The notes beneath the pieces are model-generated. The model made no database searches, was not told the DNA's origin, and saw only the letters and a list, made by a program, of their open reading frames with translations. Below, piece by piece: positions 35,559 through 44,996 of a stretch of 64,000 nucleotides of DNA (the stretch's first letter is position 1; each line of letters opens with the position of its first letter). A program made the translations under genes and the position numbers. The stretch comes from Candidatus Cloacimonadota bacterium (GTDB taxonomy: Bacteria > Cloacimonadota > Cloacimonadia > Cloacimonadales > JAIOQZ01), in assembly GCA_021108395.1 (NCBI GenBank), contig JAIOQZ010000022.1, positions 1 to 64,000 on the forward strand, written 5' to 3'.

Positions 35559-37401
35559 ACGGCAGATACAACAGCGGATTGCGCGGGCGCATGGTTTGGT
35601 CATACACGCCAAAGTGCAAGTGTGGCCCCGTCGAATGACCGGTATTGCCCATGCGCCCGATGACCTGTCCCGCTTCCACCTGCTCTCCCGCTTGCACGAA
35701 GCGCTCATCGAGATGATAGTAGGCGGTGCAGTAACCGTCCTCGTGCTGAATATATATCGCTTCGCCAGCACCACCCCGCCGCTCCGAAACACTCACGACG
35801 CCGTTGCCTGCCGCACGCACCTCCTCACCGATCTCACCGGGCAAATCGATGCCGGAATGAAAGTCGAGCTCGCGCAGTCTGGCCATCCAGTTGCTGTGTG
35901 ACGGGTGCGGACGCCAACCGAAGCGCGATGATACCGGCCGCGACGATACCGGCCAGCAAAAGCGCGTGTGGCCGAGCAACGACGAACGGTGCAGTGGCGC
36001 CAGCACAAGGGTGTCTCCGCTGAATGCCGCCCACTCTGCCGCCAGCAGATACGAGGCAATCGCCTGATCTTCGCACTCCAGCCACAGACCGTGCAAATCG
36101 GCGCGCCCCTGCTCCGCGTCGCCCGCGAGCACATTCAAAAGAGCACGCATCGATCGCACTTCCGGCTCATCGAGCCGTGCGGTTTCGGCTTGGCGTAGCA
36201 GGCTGTCGGCCAACATCCACCGGGCGTCGCGCATGGCGTATTCGGCAAGCAGCAGCCACGCCCGCAGGCGCAGTTCAGGCTCTGCCAGACCGGACAACAG
36301 TGCCGTTGCCTGCGCCTCGTGCCCTCGCTCCAGCGCAAACAGCGCATGGTTGAAACGCACGGCGTCGCTGTGGCGGGCGCCTGCGGCCAGTGAATCGGCG
36401 CGAGCGTAGAACTCGTCTATGCGAGCGGTGTCGGCGGCAGCCTCGAGCACGAGGGCGGCATTGCACAGCAGAGCGGCGGCGCTTTGGCGATGAGCAGGCA
36501 TAGCGGCCATCCGCAGAGCCTCGCTCGCCAGCTCTGCGGACGGAACCGACCGTGTGGCTTTGGCGTTCACGGTGAAAACGCCGACGTCCGGATTCAGTCG
36601 ATAGAACTGCGTCTCTGCGCTTGCCTGATTATCCTGATTATAGCGGTAGCTGGCGTAGTTGGCGCTCACCTTGTTCACATAATCGCGGGCGTAGGCGGGA
36701 ATCGAGTCGCGCACGTTGCCCGTACCGGAAAGATAGGCGGCGATGGCGCGGGTAAGGTCGGTGTGCTTGCTGTCGAGGCGATAGTGGTTGAGCAAAAAGC
36801 GCAGGTGGTTGGCGGCGCTCTCGATGTTCTTGGCCGGGTGAAAGCGTTCGTCGAGGGCGGCGTCGCGCAGGGGTGGCGACTTACAGTCGTTCTCGACGGG
36901 AACCCGCAATCCCAGGGCGCGCGCAGTGCCCGGCATGAGCTGCATCAGCCCCACTGCCCCGGCCCAGGACACAGCCTCGGCCCGAAACGAGCTTTCCTGC
37001 TTCATGAAGGCCAGCAGCAGCCCCGTGTCCATCTCATAGCGCATGGCCACATGCTCGACGAATTGCAGGAAACTGAGGCGCTCATGTTCGAGGCCCGAAC
37101 GCTGAAGCTCCGCGGCGAGGGCGGCTGCCACGTTCACAGCCACCGGGTGCCGCAGCTTCTCCATCAGGGCGAGAGCCTCGGCTTCTTCGCCGCGAATATA
37201 GCGCATGTGCGCCAGTGGCATCACAAAAGCGGCGCGGGTTGTATCGAGTGTGGCAAAGGGTGCCAGCAGCGTCTCCGCCTCGTCCCAGCGGCCTGCATCG
37301 TAGGCTCGCAGTCCGGCGCGAAGCGGCTCGGCGTCGTCGCGGGGGACAGCCGCGCAACCCAACAGCAACAGAAGCAGTGGCAACAACCGCAGACTTCTCA
37401 T
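35557..37401 (-). CDS. Lipoprotein fusing a lytic transglycosylase to an M23 endopeptidase, 614 aa
   Basis: Lipobox LLGC (C16). An SLT domain follows at about 115-230, with catalytic E136 in KQESSFRAEAVSWAGAVGLMQLMPGTARALG and the later AIAAYLSGTGNV. A helical, TPR-like middle lies at about 300-460. The C-terminal LytM/M23 domain (about 490-610) keeps zinc ligands H515 and D519 (FHSGIDL) and H596 (HLHFG), with likely catalytic H563 (YYHLDE) and H594. It should therefore cut both glycan strands and peptide cross-links of peptidoglycan. The start overlaps the stop of the upstream LysM protein gene by 4 bases (ATGA). Confidence 0.9.
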   Translation of the reverse strand: MRSLRLLPLLLLLLGCAAVPRDDAEPLRAGLRAYDAGRWDEAETLLAPFATLDTTRAAFVMPLAHMRYIRGEEAEALALMEKLRHPVAVNVAAALAAELQRSGLEHERLSFLQFVEHVAMRYEMDTGLLLAFMKQESSFRAEAVSWAGAVGLMQLMPGTARALGLRVPVENDCKSPPLRDAALDERFHPAKNIESAANHLRFLLNHYRLDSKHTDLTRAIAAYLSGTGNVRDSIPAYARDYVNKVSANYASYRYNQDNQASAETQFYRLNPDVGVFTVNAKATRSVPSAELASEALRMAAMPAHRQSAAALLCNAALVLEAAADTARIDEFYARADSLAAGARHSDAVRFNHALFALERGHEAQATALLSGLAEPELRLRAWLLLAEYAMRDARWMLADSLLRQAETARLDEPEVRSMRALLNVLAGDAEQGRADLHGLWLECEDQAIASYLLAAEWAAFSGDTLVLAPLHRSSLLGHTRFCWPVSSRPVSSRFGWRPHPSHSNWMARLRELDFHSGIDLPGEIGEEVRAAGNGVVSVSERRGGAGEAIYIQHEDGYCTAYYHLDERFVQAGEQVEAGQVIGRMGNTGHSTGPHLHFGVYDQTMRPRNPLLYLP

Positions 37402-38828
37402 CGCAGCTCCTCTATCCGGCGCAAAAGGTCGATCACTGTCTCGCTGGTGTAGCCCAGATCAATCGCACGGCGCAGATGCAGGGCGGCTTCTTCTGGTTGG
37501 TCACTCCAGAACAACGCCGCGCCCAGGTTGGCATGCAGCACAGGTTGGCCAGGAGCGAGCTCGACTGCCCAGCGCAGTTGGCGCACCGCCGTCTCGTAGC
37601 GCAGACGGTGAATGTCGGCAAGGGCACGGGCGTTGAGCAGCCAGGAATTGGCCGCGCCGCCGTGGACTGGCAGCGCCGACTCCATAGCGACCGCGCCGTT
37701 GAGCTTGTGCCGCCACACCGCACGGTTCACGGCCGTTTCGGCGATGTCGGTGGCGTGGGTGGCGTCCAGCAGGCGTTCCACCAGCAAGCGAGTCGAGTCC
37801 GGCGGCGCAGAAATAGCCTCGACCAGCTTGCGTGACGGCACCCGAATGACCTGTCCCACCTGAATGAGCGACGGGTCGTCGATGCCGTTGTAGTCGGCGA
37901 TGGCGCGCACATTGCCGCGATATTCGGGCAGGGCGCCAGGCGGAAGGTTACGGGCAATGTGGGTGAGATTGTCGCCTCGTTTGACGACAATGCGCACCTC
38001 GGAAGGCTCGAACGCGCCCAGCGCCGGCACAACCACCAAACCATGACGGCGGCGCTGGTTGCGAATGACGGTGAAAGCCTGAACCGGCAGGCGAACGGGC
38101 GGGCGATAGCGGCCAAACGAGACATCGGCGCCCAGCAGAACCGCCGTGTGGCCCTCGCGGGAAACGTCAGCGCCAGCCGTAAAGCCCAAGCTGCCGGTGT
38201 CTATCCGCCAACTCGCCCCGATTGACCAGTCGGCGGTGTCGGCGCCCTCGACCCGCAACGACAGGCCCCAGCGATGACGCAGTTCCACAGCGTAGCGACT
38301 GGCGCTGTTGTACTCACAGCCCAGCATCCAATCGGGTCTGGGGCGCAGCCAGAGGCCACTGCGCCAAGCGGGTGAGGTGGAAAATGGAAGTGAGAAGCCG
38401 TCATCAAACTCATCCCGCCAGGCGGCAGCGCCGGTGACATGCAACCAGCCGGTGGGCTTGAGCACGAAGCCTGCTTCAAAGGTGGATTCGCGGATGTTAT
38501 CCGGCAGTCGGCCAGCTCCAGCGGTGGCTCCGACATACAGCCACGAGGCAACGTGCGCAGCCAGCCCCGCTCGCCCCGAAACGCCTCTACCGGCTTCCGA
38601 TTGCCGCACGGCAACAGCCGTCAGCGCGCCAACGCGCCAGGGAGTAGGCAGCCAAAGCGTGCTTTCCAGAGCGTCGAGGTCATCTGTGACGCGAACGCCG
38701 ACGCTGAAGCATGAACGCCAGACCTCGGCCCAGCCGGATGTGTAATCCGTATGTTTGAAGTGATGCGGCGTCAACGCCGGCGCTGCCGCCAATGCAGATA
38801 GCAGCAGCAGCACGAGCGCAAATTTCAT
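37398..38828 (-). CDS. Exported LysM and TPR protein with a beta-rich N-terminal half, 476 aa
   Basis: The signal peptide ends near A16 (LLLLSALAAAPA). Residues about 25-270 are beta-rich, with alternating hydrophobic strands and many aromatic residues (for example WRSGLWLRPRPDWMLGCEYNS), suggesting a small outer-membrane barrel or beta sandwich. A LysM domain follows (about 280-335: VKRGDNLTHIARNL ... QVGQVIRVPSRK), then TPR units to the end (HANLGAALFWSDQPEEAALHLRRAIDLG). LysM points to peptidoglycan binding. Its start overlaps the pyrF stop by one base (TGATG), and its stop overlaps the SLT-M23 start, so the three are translationally linked. Confidence 0.75.
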   Translation of the reverse strand: MKFALVLLLLSALAAAPALTPHHFKHTDYTSGWAEVWRSCFSVGVRVTDDLDALESTLWLPTPWRVGALTAVAVRQSEAGRGVSGRAGLAAHVASWLYVGATAGAGRLPDNIRESTFEAGFVLKPTGWLHVTGAAAWRDEFDDGFSLPFSTSPAWRSGLWLRPRPDWMLGCEYNSASRYAVELRHRWGLSLRVEGADTADWSIGASWRIDTGSLGFTAGADVSREGHTAVLLGADVSFGRYRPPVRLPVQAFTVIRNQRRRHGLVVVPALGAFEPSEVRIVVKRGDNLTHIARNLPPGALPEYRGNVRAIADYNGIDDPSLIQVGQVIRVPSRKLVEAISAPPDSTRLLVERLLDATHATDIAETAVNRAVWRHKLNGAVAMESALPVHGGAANSWLLNARALADIHRLRYETAVRQLRWAVELAPGQPVLHANLGAALFWSDQPEEAALHLRRAIDLGYTSETVIDLLRRIEELR

Positions 38829-39628
38829 CAGCTATCCAGAATGTTGTTGATGGCCAGGCGCAGGTCTTCGGTGGCGTTCAATGCCGCCTCGGCAAAATCG
38901 TCTCCGCGAGAAGCAAAGATAATGCCACGCGAGGAGTTGACAAGAAAGCACGGTGATTCGGCGCTGGCTGTGGCATATTGCACCACTTGCTCGAGGTCTC
39001 CACCCTGCACGCCAACGCCGGGGATAAGGAACAGGCTCTTGGGCAATATCCAGCGGACACTGCGAATAGCCTTCGGGTTGGTGGCGCCCACCACTGCGCC
39101 CCATTGCTCATGCCCCCTCTTTTCCAGCCACTTGGCAATGTCCAGATAGAGATTGTTGCGCAGCAGGAAGTCCTTGGAGCTGGGATTGGAGGTTAGCGTC
39201 AGCACGAACTTCATGGCCTGGTCGAAGCCGGCAAGCGGATCGAGAACGTCACCGCCCATGAGGGGATTCACGGTGATGGCGTCGAAGGGCATTTCTTTCA
39301 GGAAGGCCTTCGCATAGGCAGACATAGTGTTGCCAATATCGCCGACCTTGCAGTCGAGAATGACCGGAATGTAGCTTGGCATGACCCCGAGAGTGCGTTC
39401 CAGCGCTTCATAGCCTGTTTTGCCCGCGGCGAGATAGAAAGCGAGATTGAGCTTGTAGCAGGCAACCTTGTTTCTGGTGGCGCGAACAATCTCCTCGTTG
39501 AATTTGAGGATAGGATTCTGCTCGAATTCGAGCAACCCCGGCAGCTTGGCGATGTCACTGTCGAGGCCAACGCACACATATGAGTCGTGAAGTTTGGTGG
39601 TGTGAGAGTACTTGTCCCAGAAAGACAT
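38828..39628 (-). CDS. pyrF: Orotidine 5'-phosphate decarboxylase, type 2
   Basis: Final step of UMP synthesis. 266 aa. The catalytic D-x-K-x-x-D motif is VILDCKVGDIGNTM, and the phosphate-binding end is FLIPGVGVQGGDLEQV. The length and the CYKLNLAFYLAAG segment place it with the type 2 group. The ATG at 39628 overlaps the pyrR stop (TGATG) and has GGAGG upstream. Confidence 0.94.
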   Translation of the reverse strand: MSFWDKYSHTTKLHDSYVCVGLDSDIAKLPGLLEFEQNPILKFNEEIVRATRNKVACYKLNLAFYLAAGKTGYEALERTLGVMPSYIPVILDCKVGDIGNTMSAYAKAFLKEMPFDAITVNPLMGGDVLDPLAGFDQAMKFVLTLTSNPSSKDFLLRNNLYLDIAKWLEKRGHEQWGAVVGATNPKAIRSVRWILPKSLFLIPGVGVQGGDLEQVVQYATASAESPCFLVNSSRGIIFASRGDDFAEAALNATEDLRLAINNILDS

Positions 39629-40179
39629 CACGCCTCCACGTCGGCGCGGATGAATATCTTCACAGAATCCTCGCCATCGGTTTCGGCCAGGCTCACCTTG
39701 ATGATTTCGTCCTGCGCGGTGGGTACGTTCTTGCCCACATAGTTGGCCTTGATGGGCAACTCGCGGTGTCCGCGGTCGATGAGCACGCAGAGCTGAATCT
39801 TGTGAGGGCGGCCAAAGTCGAGCAGAGCGTCGAAGGCGGCGCGCACTGTGCGGCCAGTGTACAGAACATCATCGATCAGAATGATGTTAGCGTTCTCGAT
39901 GTCGAAGCCAATCTCGGAGCCCTTGAGAACAGGCTGGTGAGATATGGTGGAAAGATCGTCGCGGTAGAGCGTGATGTCGATAATGCCGACAGGCACCTCG
40001 GTGTTCTCGATCTGGCGCAGATAATCCGCCAGGCGCTTGGCCAAAGGCACGCCACGACTGCGGATGCCCACCAGGTAGATGTTTTCGAGTCCTTTGTTCT
40101 GCTCCACGATTTCATGCGCGATGCGTCGTATAGCGCGTTCGATGGCGCTCGCGTCCATGATCTTACTCTTCATGTTCAT
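39628..40179 (-). CDS. pyrR: PyrR, pyr mRNA-binding regulator and uracil phosphoribosyltransferase
   Basis: 183 aa. It senses UMP/PRPP and binds RNA in the pyr leader; many members also make UMP from uracil. The PRPP loop is [25 protein letters not shown], and the N-terminal [12 protein letters not shown] and [14 protein letters not shown] are family marks. ATG 40179 has GGAGGT at the right distance; a TTG at 40197 is in frame but overlaps pyrD's end. A matching PyrR-binding RNA is visible upstream of pyrB (44155-44190). Confidence 0.94.
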
Positions 40180-40193
40180 GTTTACCTCCAGAT

Positions 40194-41096
40194 TCAAAAT
40201 GTAGCCGTACCAACAAGTTCGGCAAGCGTTAATTCTTTACGGGCAAGAAACGCGTCCAGCCCATCGAGAACGCGCACGGGAAGGTCGGGCGAAACGAACG
40301 CCGCCGTGCCCACTGCCACGGCGCAAGCGCCGGCGCGGATAAGTTCGACCGCGTCCTCCCACCCGGCGATGCCGCCCATAGCGAGGATGGGAATATTAAC
40401 CGCCTGCGCCACCCGCCACACACAGGCAACGGCCACCGGCTTGATGGCCGGGCCGCTATAGCCGGCCACGCCTCTCGCAATGCGACTGTGCCCTGTTTCT
40501 GGGTCGATGGCCATGCCCAGCAGAGTGTTGATGAGCGCCAGCGAAGTGGCGCCGCCTTCCTGCGCAGCACGGGCGATGGTGACGATGTCGGTGACGTTGG
40601 GCGTGAGCTTGACGCACAGTTCACGCTGGGTGAGGGCGGCCAGGCGGCGTGTAAGGTCGTACACCACCTGTGCGTCTGTGCCGAAGGCCATGCCCTCACG
40701 CTCGACGTTGGGGCAGCTCACGTTCACCTCGTATCCGGCGATTCCCTCATGCTTTTCCATTGTCTCCACCATGCGGCAGAATTCATCGACAGTGCCCGCC
40801 GAGAAGCTCACCATCAGCGGTGGACCAACTGCGGCATACAGCGGAAGCTCGTCGCGCAGAAAGGCTTCGAGGCCGGGGTTTTGCAGCCCGATGCTGTTGA
40901 GCAGGCCGCCGCTCGTCTCGAACAGACGCGGCGGCTGGTTGCCCGCACGCGGCTCCAGGGTGATGGTCTTGCTCACCAGCGCGCCCAGTCGGGAAAGGTC
41001 GTACCAGTCGCCGCTCTCCAGTCCGAACGTGCCAGAGGCGACAGTGACGGGGTTGGCCAGCTCGATGCGGCCCAGTTTTGTCGATAGCCTATTCAT
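40194..41096 (-). CDS. pyrD: Dihydroorotate dehydrogenase catalytic subunit, class 1B
   Basis: 300 aa FMN enzyme that oxidises dihydroorotate to orotate. The active-site cysteine lies in [11 protein letters not shown], and the FMN-binding parts are [23 protein letters not shown] and [29 protein letters not shown]. The neighbouring PyrK shows class 1B, the NAD-linked type. ATG 41096 overlaps the pyrK stop by 8 bases, with GGAGG nine bases upstream. Confidence 0.95.
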
Positions 41097-41844
41097 TCCA
41101 GTCCACCTCCTGTGCGTTGAATACCGGGCCGTCCTTGCACACCGCCATATAGCCACCAGTGACGGCGGGCACGGCGCAACCGTGACACACGCCAATGCCA
41201 CAGGCCATGTACGCCTCCAGCGACACCTCCAGCGGCACGCCGGCCTCAGTGCACAAGCCGGCGCAAGCAGCCAGCATGGCATGGGGACCGCAGGCGAAGA
41301 CGCGGTCCCAGCCGCCGCTGGCAGCTAAGGCCTCGCGCAGGCCATCGGTCACCAGTCCCTGGCGTGCGGCCACGCCCTCGTCGCAGAAGAGGACATCGGC
41401 TGGAAAGAGGTCGGCGGCGGTGCGGCCACCGTGCAGCCACTGAGTGACGCAGCCAGGCCGCAAGCGGCGTTGCAACAACCGTAACGGCGCATAGCCGATG
41501 CCTCCCGACACCAGCAGCGCGCGGCCCTCGGCCATCAGGGTGAAGCCATTGCCAAGCGGCCCCATCACGTCCAGCAGGTCACCGGGGCGCACAGCGGCAA
41601 GGCGGCGGGTACCCTGGCCCACCACCCTCACCAGCACAGCAAATGTATCGTCTTCGACATCATGCACACACAGCGGTATGCGCAGACTGAAATCAGTCTG
41701 TGGCTGTGGCTGGAGCATGACAAACTGCCCGGGCACGGCGCGGGCGATGGTGGCGTCGCGCAGCCACAGCGTGAAATAATGCTCGTTGTGTTCGAGCTTG
41801 CGCACCACGCGGCACACGGCCCGATAGCCGGACTCACTCGGCAT
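41089..41844 (-). CDS. pyrK: Dihydroorotate dehydrogenase electron-transfer subunit
   Basis: 251 aa ferredoxin-reductase-like subunit carrying FAD and a [2Fe-2S] cluster, passing electrons from PyrD to NAD. FAD-binding PGQFVMLQPQ and SLRIPLCVHD, NAD-binding LLVSGGIGYAPLRLL, and cluster cysteines in MACGIGVCHGCAVP plus the later VCKDGPVF are all visible. It overlaps pyrC by 11 bases and pyrD by 8. Confidence 0.95.
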   Translation of the reverse strand: MPSESGYRAVCRVVRKLEHNEHYFTLWLRDATIARAVPGQFVMLQPQPQTDFSLRIPLCVHDVEDDTFAVLVRVVGQGTRRLAAVRPGDLLDVMGPLGNGFTLMAEGRALLVSGGIGYAPLRLLQRRLRPGCVTQWLHGGRTAADLFPADVLFCDEGVAARQGLVTDGLREALAASGGWDRVFACGPHAMLAACAGLCTEAGVPLEVSLEAYMACGIGVCHGCAVPAVTGGYMAVCKDGPVFNAQEVDWNE

Positions 41845-43114
41845 CGTCGGCGTCCCAGGTGATGCGGCCGTCGCACCAGGTTTTCAATACGCGGCCTTTG
41901 AAGCTGCGGCCCAGAAACGGCGTGTTCTTGCTCTTGGAAAGCATCGCGTCCGGGGTGATGCTCACCTCGCCGTCAAGGTCAACCATGATGACGTCTGCGG
42001 CCAGGCCCGGCTCGATGCGGCCGGTATCGAGGCTCAGAAAGCGCGCCGGAGCCTCGGCCATGCGCTGCACCAGAGTCTCCAGTGGTAGTTCACCGGCGAG
42101 AACCAGTCCCTCATAGAGCGAGCAGAAGGCGGTCTCGAATCCGTTGATGCCATAAGGAGCAAGGGTGAACTCGCGGTCTTTTTCGTAATCGGCATGGGGC
42201 GCATGGTCGGTGGCGATGAAATCTATGACGCCCTCGCGCAACGCATCGAAGCAAGCACGGCGGTCTTTCTCGGTGCGCAACGGCGGCTTCACTTTGGTGT
42301 TGGTGTCAAAGCCAACACAGGCTTCCTCGGTCAGCAGCAGGTGATGCGGCGTCACCTCGGCGGTGACGTCGAGGCCTGCCTGGCGCGCCCACTGCACCAT
42401 CTCTATGGAACGCGCAGTGCTGATGTGCGCGATATGCAGCCGACAGCGTATCTTCTCGGCGAACATGATATCGCGGGCAATCATGACTTCCTCGGCCAGC
42501 GCCGGAATGCCCGATAGGCCAAGCTGGGTGGATATTTTGCCGCCGTTCACCTGTCCAGAACCGGCCAGGCTGTAGTCTTCGGCATGGACGATGACCGGAA
42601 TGTTGAATCCGGCGGCGTATTTGAGCGCGTTGAACTTGAGCCGCCCCTCCTGTACACAACTACCATCGTCCGATACGGCGGTGATGCCGCCTTTCAGCAT
42701 GTTGGCTATGCTCGCAATCTCCTTGCCCTCGCTGTTCCGGGTCAGGGCGCCCACCACCAATACCTTGCAGCTCCCCAGTTCTTTCGCTTTGCGGTTGATG
42801 TACTCGACTGTGGCCAGGTTATCGACAACGGGGTCTGTGTTGGCCATGGCCTGCACGGTGGTGAAGCCACCTTTGGCGGCGGCGCGTGTTCCACTGACAA
42901 TGTCTTCCTTGTGCATCTGGCCGGGGTCGCGGAGGTGGACATGCAGATCGATGAAGCCGGGCATGACGTGCTTGCCGATGGCGTCAAAGACGCTGTCTGC
43001 TTTGGCGGTGAGCTTTTGCCCCACTTCGGCGATGCGATCGTTGTCGAGCAGCACGTCCGCCTGCACGAACGCGCCATCACGATATACCAGTCCGTTCTTG
43101 ATGAGTGTACGCAT
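41834..43114 (-). CDS. pyrC: Dihydroorotase, class I
   Basis: 426 aa zinc amidohydrolase that cyclises carbamoyl-aspartate. The metal site DLHVHLRDPGQMHKEDIVSG, the later HAEDYSL and LHIAHIST, and FIATDHAPH carry the expected histidines and aspartate. The N-terminal NGLVYRDGAFVQADVLLDNDRI (split) is the usual beta sandwich. It lies 9 bases after pyrB. Confidence 0.95.
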   Translation of the reverse strand: MRTLIKNGLVYRDGAFVQADVLLDNDRIAEVGQKLTAKADSVFDAIGKHVMPGFIDLHVHLRDPGQMHKEDIVSGTRAAAKGGFTTVQAMANTDPVVDNLATVEYINRKAKELGSCKVLVVGALTRNSEGKEIASIANMLKGGITAVSDDGSCVQEGRLKFNALKYAAGFNIPVIVHAEDYSLAGSGQVNGGKISTQLGLSGIPALAEEVMIARDIMFAEKIRCRLHIAHISTARSIEMVQWARQAGLDVTAEVTPHHLLLTEEACVGFDTNTKVKPPLRTEKDRRACFDALREGVIDFIATDHAPHADYEKDREFTLAPYGINGFETAFCSLYEGLVLAGELPLETLVQRMAEAPARFLSLDTGRIEPGLAADVIMVDLDGEVSITPDAMLSKSKNTPFLGRSFKGRVLKTWCDGRITWDADDAE

Positions 43115-43123
43115 GATTGCCTC

Positions 43124-44062
43124 CTACGCCTTTCCGCCGAGCATGAGAAACAGAATAGCCATGCGCACATTGACGCCATTGGCCACCTGCTTCAATATAA
43201 GGCTCTGCTCCGAGTCGGCGATCTCGGGCAGGATTTCGATGCCACGGTTCATTGGCCCCGGGTGCATGATGAGGGCGTCTTTCTTCGCCCAGCGAATAGT
43301 TTCTTTGGACAGCACATAATGGCGGGTGTATTCGTCGAGGCCGGGGAACAGCCCCTCGCGTTGCCGTTCGATCTGCATCCGCAGTCCCATGACCACGTCG
43401 GCGTTCTTGAGCGCTGTCTTGAGGTCGTATTCCACCTCACAGCCATAAATCTCCGGTAGATAACCCGGCACCAGCGTACGCGGACCGCACACCACCACCT
43501 CGGCGCCCAGTTTTTTCATGCCGATGAGATTCGAGCGCACCACGCGGCTGTGGGTCACATCGCCCACGATGGCGATGCGCAGTCCCTTCAGCGAGCCAAG
43601 CCGTTCCCAGATCGAGAAGATGTCGAGCAGCGCCTGGGTGGGATGGGCGTGACGCCCGTCACCGGCGTTGATGACCGGTTTGGACGAATGCTTGTGCACC
43701 AGTTGCGGGCTGCCAGGGCAGCTGTGGCGCACGATGTAGAGGTCGATGCCCATGGCGTTGAGGGTGTAAACAGTGTCCTGGAGGCTTTCGCCTTTGGCCA
43801 GGGCAGAGGTTTCCGCCGAGAAGCTGACGACATCCGCCGACATGCGGCTGGCGGCCAACTCGAATGACATGCGGGTACGGGTAGAATTCTCGAAGAAAAG
43901 AGTGCAGACGGTCTTGCCCTTCAGCGTAGGCAGCTTTTTGTAGTCACGCAGGTTGATCTGTTTCATCACCTGGGTCGCCTCGAGGATGGCGACGATTTCA
44001 TCGGTCGAGTAGTCGTCGAGGTCGAAAAGGTTGCGTCCCAGCAGGTTGAATTTGCTTTGCAT
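43124..44062 (-). CDS. pyrB: Aspartate carbamoyltransferase catalytic subunit
   Basis: 312 aa. Commits carbamoyl phosphate and aspartate to pyrimidines. The carbamoyl-phosphate loop is FFENSTRTRMSFELAASRM, with HPTQALLDIFS and MHPGPMNRGIEI. There is no pyrI gene beside it, so it is probably not regulated allosterically by the E. coli type of subunit. It is the first gene of the pyr operon. Its ribosome site CGGAGG lies in a sequence (CGGAGGACCG) able to pair with RNA 45 bases upstream; see the leader entry. Confidence 0.96.
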   Translation of the reverse strand: MQSKFNLLGRNLFDLDDYSTDEIVAILEATQVMKQINLRDYKKLPTLKGKTVCTLFFENSTRTRMSFELAASRMSADVVSFSAETSALAKGESLQDTVYTLNAMGIDLYIVRHSCPGSPQLVHKHSSKPVINAGDGRHAHPTQALLDIFSIWERLGSLKGLRIAIVGDVTHSRVVRSNLIGMKKLGAEVVVCGPRTLVPGYLPEIYGCEVEYDLKTALKNADVVMGLRMQIERQREGLFPGLDEYTRHYVLSKETIRWAKKDALIMHPGPMNRGIEILPEIADSEQSLILKQVANGVNVRMAILFLMLGGKA

Positions 44063-44126
44063 CGGTCCTCCGTTAGCATTGAAATCAGGGTGAGCTTACG
44101 AAACGGGAATAGGTTGGACCGGCGGG
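44063..44126 (-). promoter_or_regulatory. Possible hairpin that hides the pyrB ribosome site
   Basis: On the transcript, CGGUCC-AA-CC (44121-44112) can pair with GG-A-GGACCG (44071-44063), covering the pyrB Shine-Dalgarno GGAGG. The 5' arm begins 5 bases after the stop of the 7-codon leader ORF, so a ribosome finishing that ORF would keep the arm unpaired. Confidence 0.5.
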
Positions 44127-44150
44127 TCAGCGAGGTGTCTTGCGCGGCAT
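44127..44150 (-). CDS. Putative 7-residue leader peptide MPRKTPR
   Basis: ATG at 44150 is preceded by an excellent ribosome site AAGGAGG four bases upstream; the frame reads M-P-R-K-T-P-R and stops at TGA (44129-44127). It lies between the PyrR-binding RNA and pyrB. The ribosome site overlaps the lower stem of the PyrR element. The peptide is too short for family recognition; the strength of the ribosome site and its position are the only evidence. Confidence 0.5.
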   Translation of the reverse strand: MPRKTPR

Positions 44151-44154
44151 TCTT

Positions 44155-44190
44155 CCTCCTTATCTGCCTCACAGGACAGTTTAAAGGGTC
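44155..44190 (-). promoter_or_regulatory. PyrR-binding RNA element in the pyr leader
   Basis: The transcript reads CCUUUAAACUGUCCUGUGAG then GCAGAUAAGG. This matches the known PyrR recognition pattern, UUUAAAxxxGUCCxGxGAGGCxGAxAAGG: an upper CUG/CAG stem closing the UCCUGUGAGG loop and a lower CCUU/AAGG stem. The lower stem's AAGG is part of the leader ORF's ribosome site. pyrR itself is in the operon. No U-tract terminator is seen between here and pyrB, which argues against the Bacillus transcription-attenuation form. Confidence 0.82.
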
Positions 44191-44200
44191 GATTTAACAT

Positions 44201-44244
44201 TACGAAAAACGTTGCCAGATTTCCTGTCAAGCGCATTTTTCGTA
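44201..44244. promoter_or_regulatory. Inverted repeat in the divergent pyrB / TPR gene control region
   Basis: TACGAAAAA (44201-44209) and TTTTTCGTA (44236-44244) are perfect inverted copies 26 bases apart. Between them, TTGACA lies on the minus strand (44230-44225) and TTGCCA on the plus strand (44212-44217). It may be an operator, or symmetric divergent promoter halves. Confidence 0.45.
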
Positions 44245-44246
44245 TC

Positions 44247-44996
44247 ATGAATACCACATCCGACACAACCGCATCAGATGGGCAAATGGCAACAGAAGAA
44301 AACCGCCGCGCCGAAGCCGAAGCGCTGTTTCACACCGCCGAGGTGCTGGCCGGATTGGGCGACCACTCCGCCGCCGCCGGCCAATATCTGCAATCGCTCG
44401 AACTGTGGGACAGAGTGGCCGTAGTGCACCACCAGCTTGGCGTTGCGCTGTTGCAGCTTGGAGAACCGCAGCAGGCCACCGCGGCATTCGAGCGAGCAAT
44501 CGAGCTTGACCCTGATGTGCCGCGTTACTGGGTCAATCGCGGGTTCTGCGCTCTGCAATGCGGCCACGAACCGCAGGCCCTCGAGTTCTACAATCACGCC
44601 CTCGCCCTGGATGACACCCTGGCGGACGCCTGGTTCAACCGCGCCAACCTGCACCTCCTCCTCGGCGACACTGCCGCCGCCATCAGCGACTTCCAGCGCA
44701 CAGTCGCCCTCGACCCAGGTGACGCCGACGCCTGGTTCAATCTGGGCATAGCGCTTCACGATCACGGGCTGGCCGAAAACTCGCTCGAGGCCTACGGGAA
44801 GGCGCTCGAACTCGTCCCCGATGAACCCTCAGTGCTGCACAACATGGGTGTCAGCCTGCTGAAGCTGAAGCGGATTGACGAAGCGGTGAGCTGTCTGCGA
44901 CAGGCGCTGGAGCTTGGGCTCGATCAGGCAGAGGAAACCCTCGAGCTGGCGAAGAGCATGAGCGCTGAAACCGACATATCTGGACATGGAGAGTAG
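44247..44996 (+). CDS. Cytoplasmic TPR-repeat protein, 249 aa
   Basis: No signal peptide. Six or so TPR units run from about residue 28 to 240: ALFHTAEVLAGLGDHSAAAGQYLQS, VHHQLGVALLQLGEPQQATAAFERAIELDPD, then YWVNRGF, WFNRANL, WFNLGIAL and LHNMGVSLLKLKRIDEAVSCLRQALELG. It is likely a scaffold for protein contacts, with no specific partner visible. It is transcribed away from pyrB from a shared 180-base region. There is no Shine-Dalgarno before ATG 44247, so the message may be leaderless or the start may be wrong; no other early start is better. Confidence 0.8.
   Translation: MNTTSDTTASDGQMATEENRRAEAEALFHTAEVLAGLGDHSAAAGQYLQSLELWDRVAVVHHQLGVALLQLGEPQQATAAFERAIELDPDVPRYWVNRGFCALQCGHEPQALEFYNHALALDDTLADAWFNRANLHLLLGDTAAAISDFQRTVALDPGDADAWFNLGIALHDHGLAENSLEAYGKALELVPDEPSVLHNMGVSLLKLKRIDEAVSCLRQALELGLDQAEETLELAKSMSAETDISGHGE

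Follow-up and report, generated by a model that had tools for sequence, protein, structure and literature searches.

In translational attenuation, as in ermC and cat, a ribosome on a short leader open reading frame (ORF) frees a sequestered Shine–Dalgarno sequence (SD), and the drug-stalled ribosome is the signal. For the regulator PyrR, Van de Casteele and co-workers are said to have proposed in 1997 that, in Thermus ZO5, the protein and a leader ribosome act on a terminator. In Mycobacterium, a study by Fields and Switzer of 2007 reportedly found translational repression by PyrR, with a site covering the SD of a structural gene. The pyr attenuation system of Bacillus includes a PyrR-binding hairpin in the pyr leader (PMC4347634). 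For CsrA and iraD in E. coli, repression via a short ORF located upstream of the gene was obtained experimentally: the RNA-binding protein blocks the SD of this ORF, and the SD of iraD, which is sequestered, requires translation of the ORF (PMC5574718). A literature search, made without most subscription journals, found no published description of PyrR acting through an anti-SD relay.

The locus considered here lies in the window, a stretch of 64,000 nucleotides from the 2.9 Mb genome of a Candidatus Cloacimonadota bacterium, and its leader elements and pyrB are read on the minus strand, in the region 44230-43124 (Table 1). NCBIfam profile matches give the gene order pyrB-pyrC-pyrK-pyrD-pyrR-pyrF, and pyrR sits within the operon that PyrR would regulate. 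No full sigma-70 promoter was detected by a scan for the strict consensus; judging from the sequence, TTGACA is likely to be the −35 box, and CTTGAC is located about 40–50 nt 5′ of the hairpin in most relatives. An ORF located 3′ of pyrF (37398-38828, minus strand) shares one base with the end of pyrF and is a possible operon member; it has a weak match to the ActS family of amidase activators (20.6 bits, cut-off 375). A divergent gene of a TPR-repeat protein (44247-44996, plus strand) starts near the pyr promoter region. The positions that the sequence-only reading of this DNA had assigned to the PyrR element, the AAGGAGG motif, the MPRKTPR leader, the pairing arm and the pyrB SD were all right.

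Table 1. Leader elements and pyr genes of the window (positions of the 64,000-nt stretch).
Feature	Position	Strand	Evidence
Likely −35 box TTGACA	44225..44230	-	Sequence
PyrR-binding-type hairpin CCCUUUAAACUGUCCUGUGAGGCAGAUAAGG	44158..44188	-	Partial RF00515 match, covariation, sole credible genome site
AAGGAGG, SD of leader ORF, overlapping lower PyrR stem	44155..44161	-	Sequence; overlap kept in every relative read
7-codon leader ORF MPRKTPR (ATG CCG CGC AAG ACA CCT CGC TGA)	44127..44150	-	Sequence and relatives
Anti-SD arm CCGGUCC, a few nt past leader stop codon	44116..44122	-	Pairs with 44068-44063; position and complementarity kept in relatives
pyrB SD GGAGG with ACCG spacer, predicted to be sequestered by the arm	44063..44071	-	Sequence and predicted pairing
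pyrB start codon ATG	44062-44060	-	Sequence
pyrB, aspartate carbamoyltransferase catalytic subunit	43124..44062	-	NCBIfam NF002032, 382.7 bits (cut-off 263)
pyrC, dihydroorotase	41834..43114	-	NCBIfam TIGR00857, 411 bits (cut-off 279)
pyrK-like, dihydroorotate dehydrogenase electron transfer subunit	41089..41844	-	NCBIfam NF000798, 147.8 bits (below cut-off 219)
pyrD, dihydroorotate dehydrogenase	40194..41090	-	NCBIfam NF005574, 345.2 bits (cut-off 269)
pyrR, regulator / uracil phosphoribosyltransferase	39628..40197	-	NCBIfam NF003549, 248.7 bits (cut-off 138)
pyrF, orotidine-5′-phosphate decarboxylase	38828..39631	-	NCBIfam TIGR02127, 196.8 bits (cut-off 110.6)

The hairpin has a lower stem CCUU/AAGG and the loop CCUGUGAGG. 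Only positions 5-36 of the 115 positions of Rfam RF00515 are matched in the window (22.5 bits, gathering score 54), and, because the remainder of the model is absent here, the element is filed as the RF00515 core hairpin and not as a full RF00515 leader. It shows the stem-loop, the conserved CC...GNGAG loop and the covarying stems of this core, and it lies 5′ of the pyr operon, with PyrR encoded by the same genome. Searches with a covariance model built from 29 Cloacimonadales leaders, the window being one of the 29 training rows, revealed the hairpin, with E 5e-4, as the only credible match in the genome, where the next best one has E 6.9 and no second PyrR site is credible. The stems of the 29 leaders contain 42 cells changed on both sides, compared with 14.1 in shuffles, and the covariation score is 0.413, compared with 0.06–0.10 for slid registers. 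Each of the Cloacimonadales genomes that have a close pyrB (61/61) contains one hairpin, adjoining pyrB on the 5′ side. A match in genome G057 (E 0.004), reading CTCTCCCGAGAGGAGAG, was judged to be a chance match. Family f13 of another order gave marginal hairpin matches only (best E 0.06), none of them at pyrB; the pyrB loci of this family (L124-L137) are pyrB-pyrR operons without a recognisable PyrR hairpin at pyrB. By analogy with known PyrR biology, the hairpin of the window would bind PyrR, and UMP would be the signal.

Leaders were read in 58 of the 61 Cloacimonadales genomes, namely in 42 of the 45 that belong to family f10 and in 16 from other families, and the 3′ strand of the hairpin (AAAGG or AAGG) is part of an SD in every one of them. 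That the AAGG of the leader SD is at the same time the lower PyrR stem, as had been proposed from the window, holds there, and the same overlap is present in every relative read. Three outputs of the hairpin can be distinguished. In the first, it lies over the SD of pyrB itself; this is the case in 42/42 of the f10 leaders read, which belong to one clade. Family f10, probably Cloacimonadaceae, includes Candidatus Syntrophosphaera thermopropionivorans (L042), the leader of which reads the same as that of L018. Outside f10, all the leaders (16/16) have a leader ORF with an SD overlapping the hairpin. Five genomes of three families (three genomes of f2, and f4 and f9) carry the second type, a leader ORF of 26–36 codons ending 13 nt before the pyrB start or inside it. 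The third type, to which the window belongs, has a leader ORF of only 6–7 codons and is found in 11 genomes of seven families. In the PyrB tree, the direct-occlusion type forms one clade (support 100/96), and the short and run-through leaders are intermixed, as would be expected if leader translation is what matters; at least four changes among the three types are required on this tree, which resolves little of the node order among the families.

The loss of the short ORF in relatives had been named in the sequence-only reading as grounds for giving up its proposal; the ORF is in fact kept, with its SD in the hairpin, throughout the third type. Its length is six codons in nine of the 11 genomes and seven in two, the chance of a length of exactly six being about 5% per leader. 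The peptides are MPRKTPR in the window, MNRKRPF in a relative of the same family, and MKAAPT, MRYRFK, MNKSPS, MLSRAP (twice), MHQLKT, MHQVPT, MTYGIP and MLYGFP; within families, residues are kept via partly synonymous changes (TAC/TAT, GGC/GGT, AAG/AAA, CCT/CCC). The distance from the leader stop to the pyrB ATG is 51–92 nt in this class and 64 nt in the window. The 7-codon leader is presumably translated.

Within the arm, CGGUCC occupies 44121-44116 and is followed by AA and CC to 44112, and in the pyrB region GGAGG corresponds to 44071-44067 and GGACCG to 44068-44063 (all on the minus strand). The predicted helix in the window, composed of CGGUCC/GGACCG and a weak extension, has an energy of −12.5 kcal/mol. 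When the window is considered alone, neither the arm–SD duplex (p 0.10 against shuffles) nor the SD accessibility (p 0.26) is significant; the shuffles nearly match the real arm because the spacer is GC-rich, and the case for the pairing therefore rests on the comparison with relatives. The predicted mean probability of being unpaired for the pyrB GGAGG is 0.06–0.07, and it becomes 0.35 if the leader stop is occupied by a ribosome. The earlier suggestion that a ribosome on the leader opens this SD is thus reproduced by the structure prediction in its direction (0.07 to 0.35), but the predicted opening is only partial.

In each of the 11 short leaders, 14-nt segments were slid along the leader, and the energy of their duplexes with the pyrB SD was calculated. 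Segments at offsets −3 to +2, counted from the first base past the stop codon, average about −9.3 kcal/mol, and those elsewhere about −4 kcal/mol; the best-pairing segments start at −4 to +6 relative to the leader stop in 9/11 leaders. A terminating ribosome covers about 10 nt past the stop codon, so the arm is located where this ribosome would sit. The arms differ from shuffled arms with a Fisher p of 1e-9 (3e-5 with the worst member per family), and the arm–SD pairs of the same genome sum to −113.6 kcal/mol, compared with −85.1 kcal/mol (sd 5.9) for swapped pairs (p about 5e-5; 0.0004 or 0.04 with one genome per family, depending on the member chosen), the pooled p-values overstating independence since the 11 leaders are phylogenetically linked. 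Flanking pairs have changed on both sides, with A-U, U-A and G-C found just 5′ of GGAGG, which indicates compensation, and L119, from the family of the window, has a different arm and SD flank (CUUCCAG/CUGGAGG) with the pairing still kept. One short leader (L002) shows no arm–SD pairing at all, and in another one (L004), the arm CUCCGAU is placed between the leader SD and the ATG, not at the stop; there, an initiating ribosome would cover it. A search for pairing of the leader tail with its own SD gave no signal beyond one p of 0.03. Of the proposed arm–SD pairing, the comparative part stands, with a compensated arm at the stop in nine of the 11 leaders and a tenth arm in the leader ribosome site; masking of the downstream SD by an arm under the leader ribosome is likewise found by comparison and by prediction, and it is weak in the window alone.

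Two scans found no intrinsic terminator in the 16 Cloacimonadales leaders that have leader ORFs, with L119 as a weak exception. In L119, the SD–arm helix CUUCCAG...CUGGAGG (−6.7 kcal/mol) is followed by UUUUUCUA and may double as a weak terminator. The window shares with Bacillus pyr attenuation the PyrR-binding-type hairpin in the pyr leader, but lacks the antiterminator and the terminator. Leaders of distant phyla have a different continuation. A leader ORF has its ribosome site at the 3′ strand of the hairpin in L052, L054, L060, L062, L063, L071 and L079, and the same arrangement is seen in L082, L085, L088, L090, L104 and L107; a strong terminator comes next in most of those tested among the L052-L107 leader-ORF loci, which represent many unrelated phyla. 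In 12/12 distant leader-ORF loci, including those of Chloroploca, Marinimicrobia, Calditrichia and Krumholzibacteriota, among others, a hairpin of −16 to −31 kcal/mol precedes a U-tract. These 12 terminator-bearing loci fit what was reportedly proposed for Thermus, and the Thermus-type arrangement looks widespread. The window has in common with the Thermus ZO5 leader, as reported, a PyrR-type site by a leader ORF, the ribosome on which would determine what becomes of the pyr transcript, and in common with the Thermus-like distant loci a hairpin strand that bears the leader SD, but the output there is an intrinsic terminator, whereas here it would be a masked pyrB SD. The Cloacimonadales thus appear, from the comparison of leaders, to keep the input (a PyrR hairpin on a leader SD) and to swap the output. 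Some other loci carry the hairpin upstream of pyrR: in L066 and L116 (both Zixibacteria) and L073 (unclassified bacterium Gpa_37), a leader ORF of 34–43 codons runs to the pyrR start or near it without a strong terminator, resembling the run-through class of Cloacimonadales, and in L101 (Acidobacteria) and L109 (Actinomycetota), the hairpin directly covers the pyrR ribosome site.

Among systems controlled at the level of translation, the mycobacterial one, as reported, is similar in that the PyrR site overlaps an SD, but the window interposes a leader ORF; direct occlusion fits f10 and not the window. With ermC and cat, the window would have in common the freeing of a masked SD by a leader-ORF ribosome; unlike in these genes, neither a drug nor a defined stall peptide would be involved here, and the accessibility of the leader SD would serve as the signal. 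In comparison with CsrA and iraD, the stop of the iraD upstream ORF overlaps the iraD start, whereas the leader stop of the window is 64 nt away from the pyrB start; such overlap or abutment, absent from the window, is found or nearly found in five relatives. Moreover, unmasking in the window would act on an anti-SD arm, and the signal would be UMP via PyrR and not CsrA.

The pyr operon is probably controlled by an autogenous translational switch relayed via the leader ORF. When pyrimidines are scarce, PyrR would be off the RNA, and ribosomes would load on AAGGAGG at the hairpin base and translate the 7-codon ORF; at the stop codon, the ribosome would cover the arm CCGGUCC, so that the pyrB SD would be free, and pyrB and the coupled downstream genes would be translated. 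When UMP is high, PyrR-UMP would clamp the hairpin and close the leader SD; the ORF would then be untranslated, and the bare arm would pair with the pyrB SD and mask pyrB. A PyrR/leader relay of this kind, already proposed in the sequence-only reading, gains support from the comparison of leaders; we infer the unmasking by the terminating ribosome and its effect on pyrB expression, and other relatives use direct occlusion or run-through instead.

The absence of an intrinsic terminator means that some other output is needed, and Rho could provide it: PyrR would leave the leader untranslated and so expose a C-rich, G-poor spacer, leading to early termination, and a leader ribosome would block Rho. 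Untranslated leaders commonly open RNA to Rho, and the spacer of the window, from the leader ATG to pyrB, is indeed C-rich (C fraction 0.36). The spacers of most relatives, however, are A/T-rich (51–92 nt, C fraction 0.12–0.22), and Rho control, which we consider unlikely, accounts neither for an anti-SD arm that is compensated and keeps its place at the leader stop nor for the sister clade f10, in which the SD of pyrB is occluded directly. Quite unlikely, too, is termination–reinitiation or a local supply of ribosomes, in which leader translation would feed ribosomes to pyrB and the arm would be incidental. The leader ORFs that end 13 nt before the pyrB start or inside it, in five relatives, do have the classical coupling layout, but in the short class, the stop and the pyrB ATG are 51–92 nt apart, and the arms, which are compensated, keep a fixed position.

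A switch made of RNA only would need no ORF translation: without PyrR, the arm would pair with the leader AAGGAGG and free the pyrB SD. Both targets are SDs, and the arm pairs with either to some extent, its energy with the leader SD being −4.5 to −9.3 kcal/mol. As the swapped pairs indicate, however, the complementarity is directed specifically at the genome's own pyrB SD, and in the short leaders, the arms show no own-genome match with the leader SD (p 0.93); the conserved ATG, the frame, the length of 6–7 codons and the run-through ORFs of relatives would also stay without explanation, which makes this switch very unlikely. Least probable of all is a passive leader ORF, with PyrR affecting mRNA stability alone or having no target at this locus, given that the ORF and the SD overlap are kept in 16/16 leaders outside f10, that the SD is occluded directly in f10 and that pyrR lies within the operon.

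As an extension of the relay switch, the short leader can tentatively be viewed as a timed plug with slow termination at a late proline, one of three interchangeable outputs of a single PyrR hairpin (direct occlusion, run-through coupling and slow-termination relay); we hold this to be possible, though on balance doubtful. The length of the ORF would place the terminating ribosome over the arm, and proline in the last two codons would slow termination, so that the ribosome would linger there. Proline is present within the last two residues in nine of the 11 short leaders, with a pooled binomial p of about 1e-8, given about 4% proline in PyrB, and in all members of five of the seven families (about 2e-4), these p-values being generous since the pattern was noticed after seeing the data. 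In E. coli, a proline at the C-terminus reportedly disturbs termination, to judge from the title of Hayes et al. 2002 as cited in PMC2998420; an effect of this kind would hold the ribosome on the arm.

The suggestion that such a relay would be new can be kept in a narrower form: no description of a PyrR anti-SD relay was found, but the version with a terminator that was reportedly proposed for Thermus and the upstream ORF of CsrA-regulated iraD are precedents. The combination of a PyrR hairpin and an anti-SD relay appears to be genuine and to represent a version, not described before, of a type of RNA switch that is already known. The output of a single protein-binding hairpin appears to depend on the element placed after its SD strand, which may be the structural gene, a coupled ORF, a tiny ORF accompanied by an anti-SD arm or, in phyla other than this one, an ORF followed by a terminator. 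If the proposed switch is true, it would provide a compact natural example, from a poorly studied phylum, in which an RNA-binding protein exerts its effect at a distance through a leader ribosome, and it would offer a testable explanation for leader genes of fewer than 10 codons that are missed by annotation.
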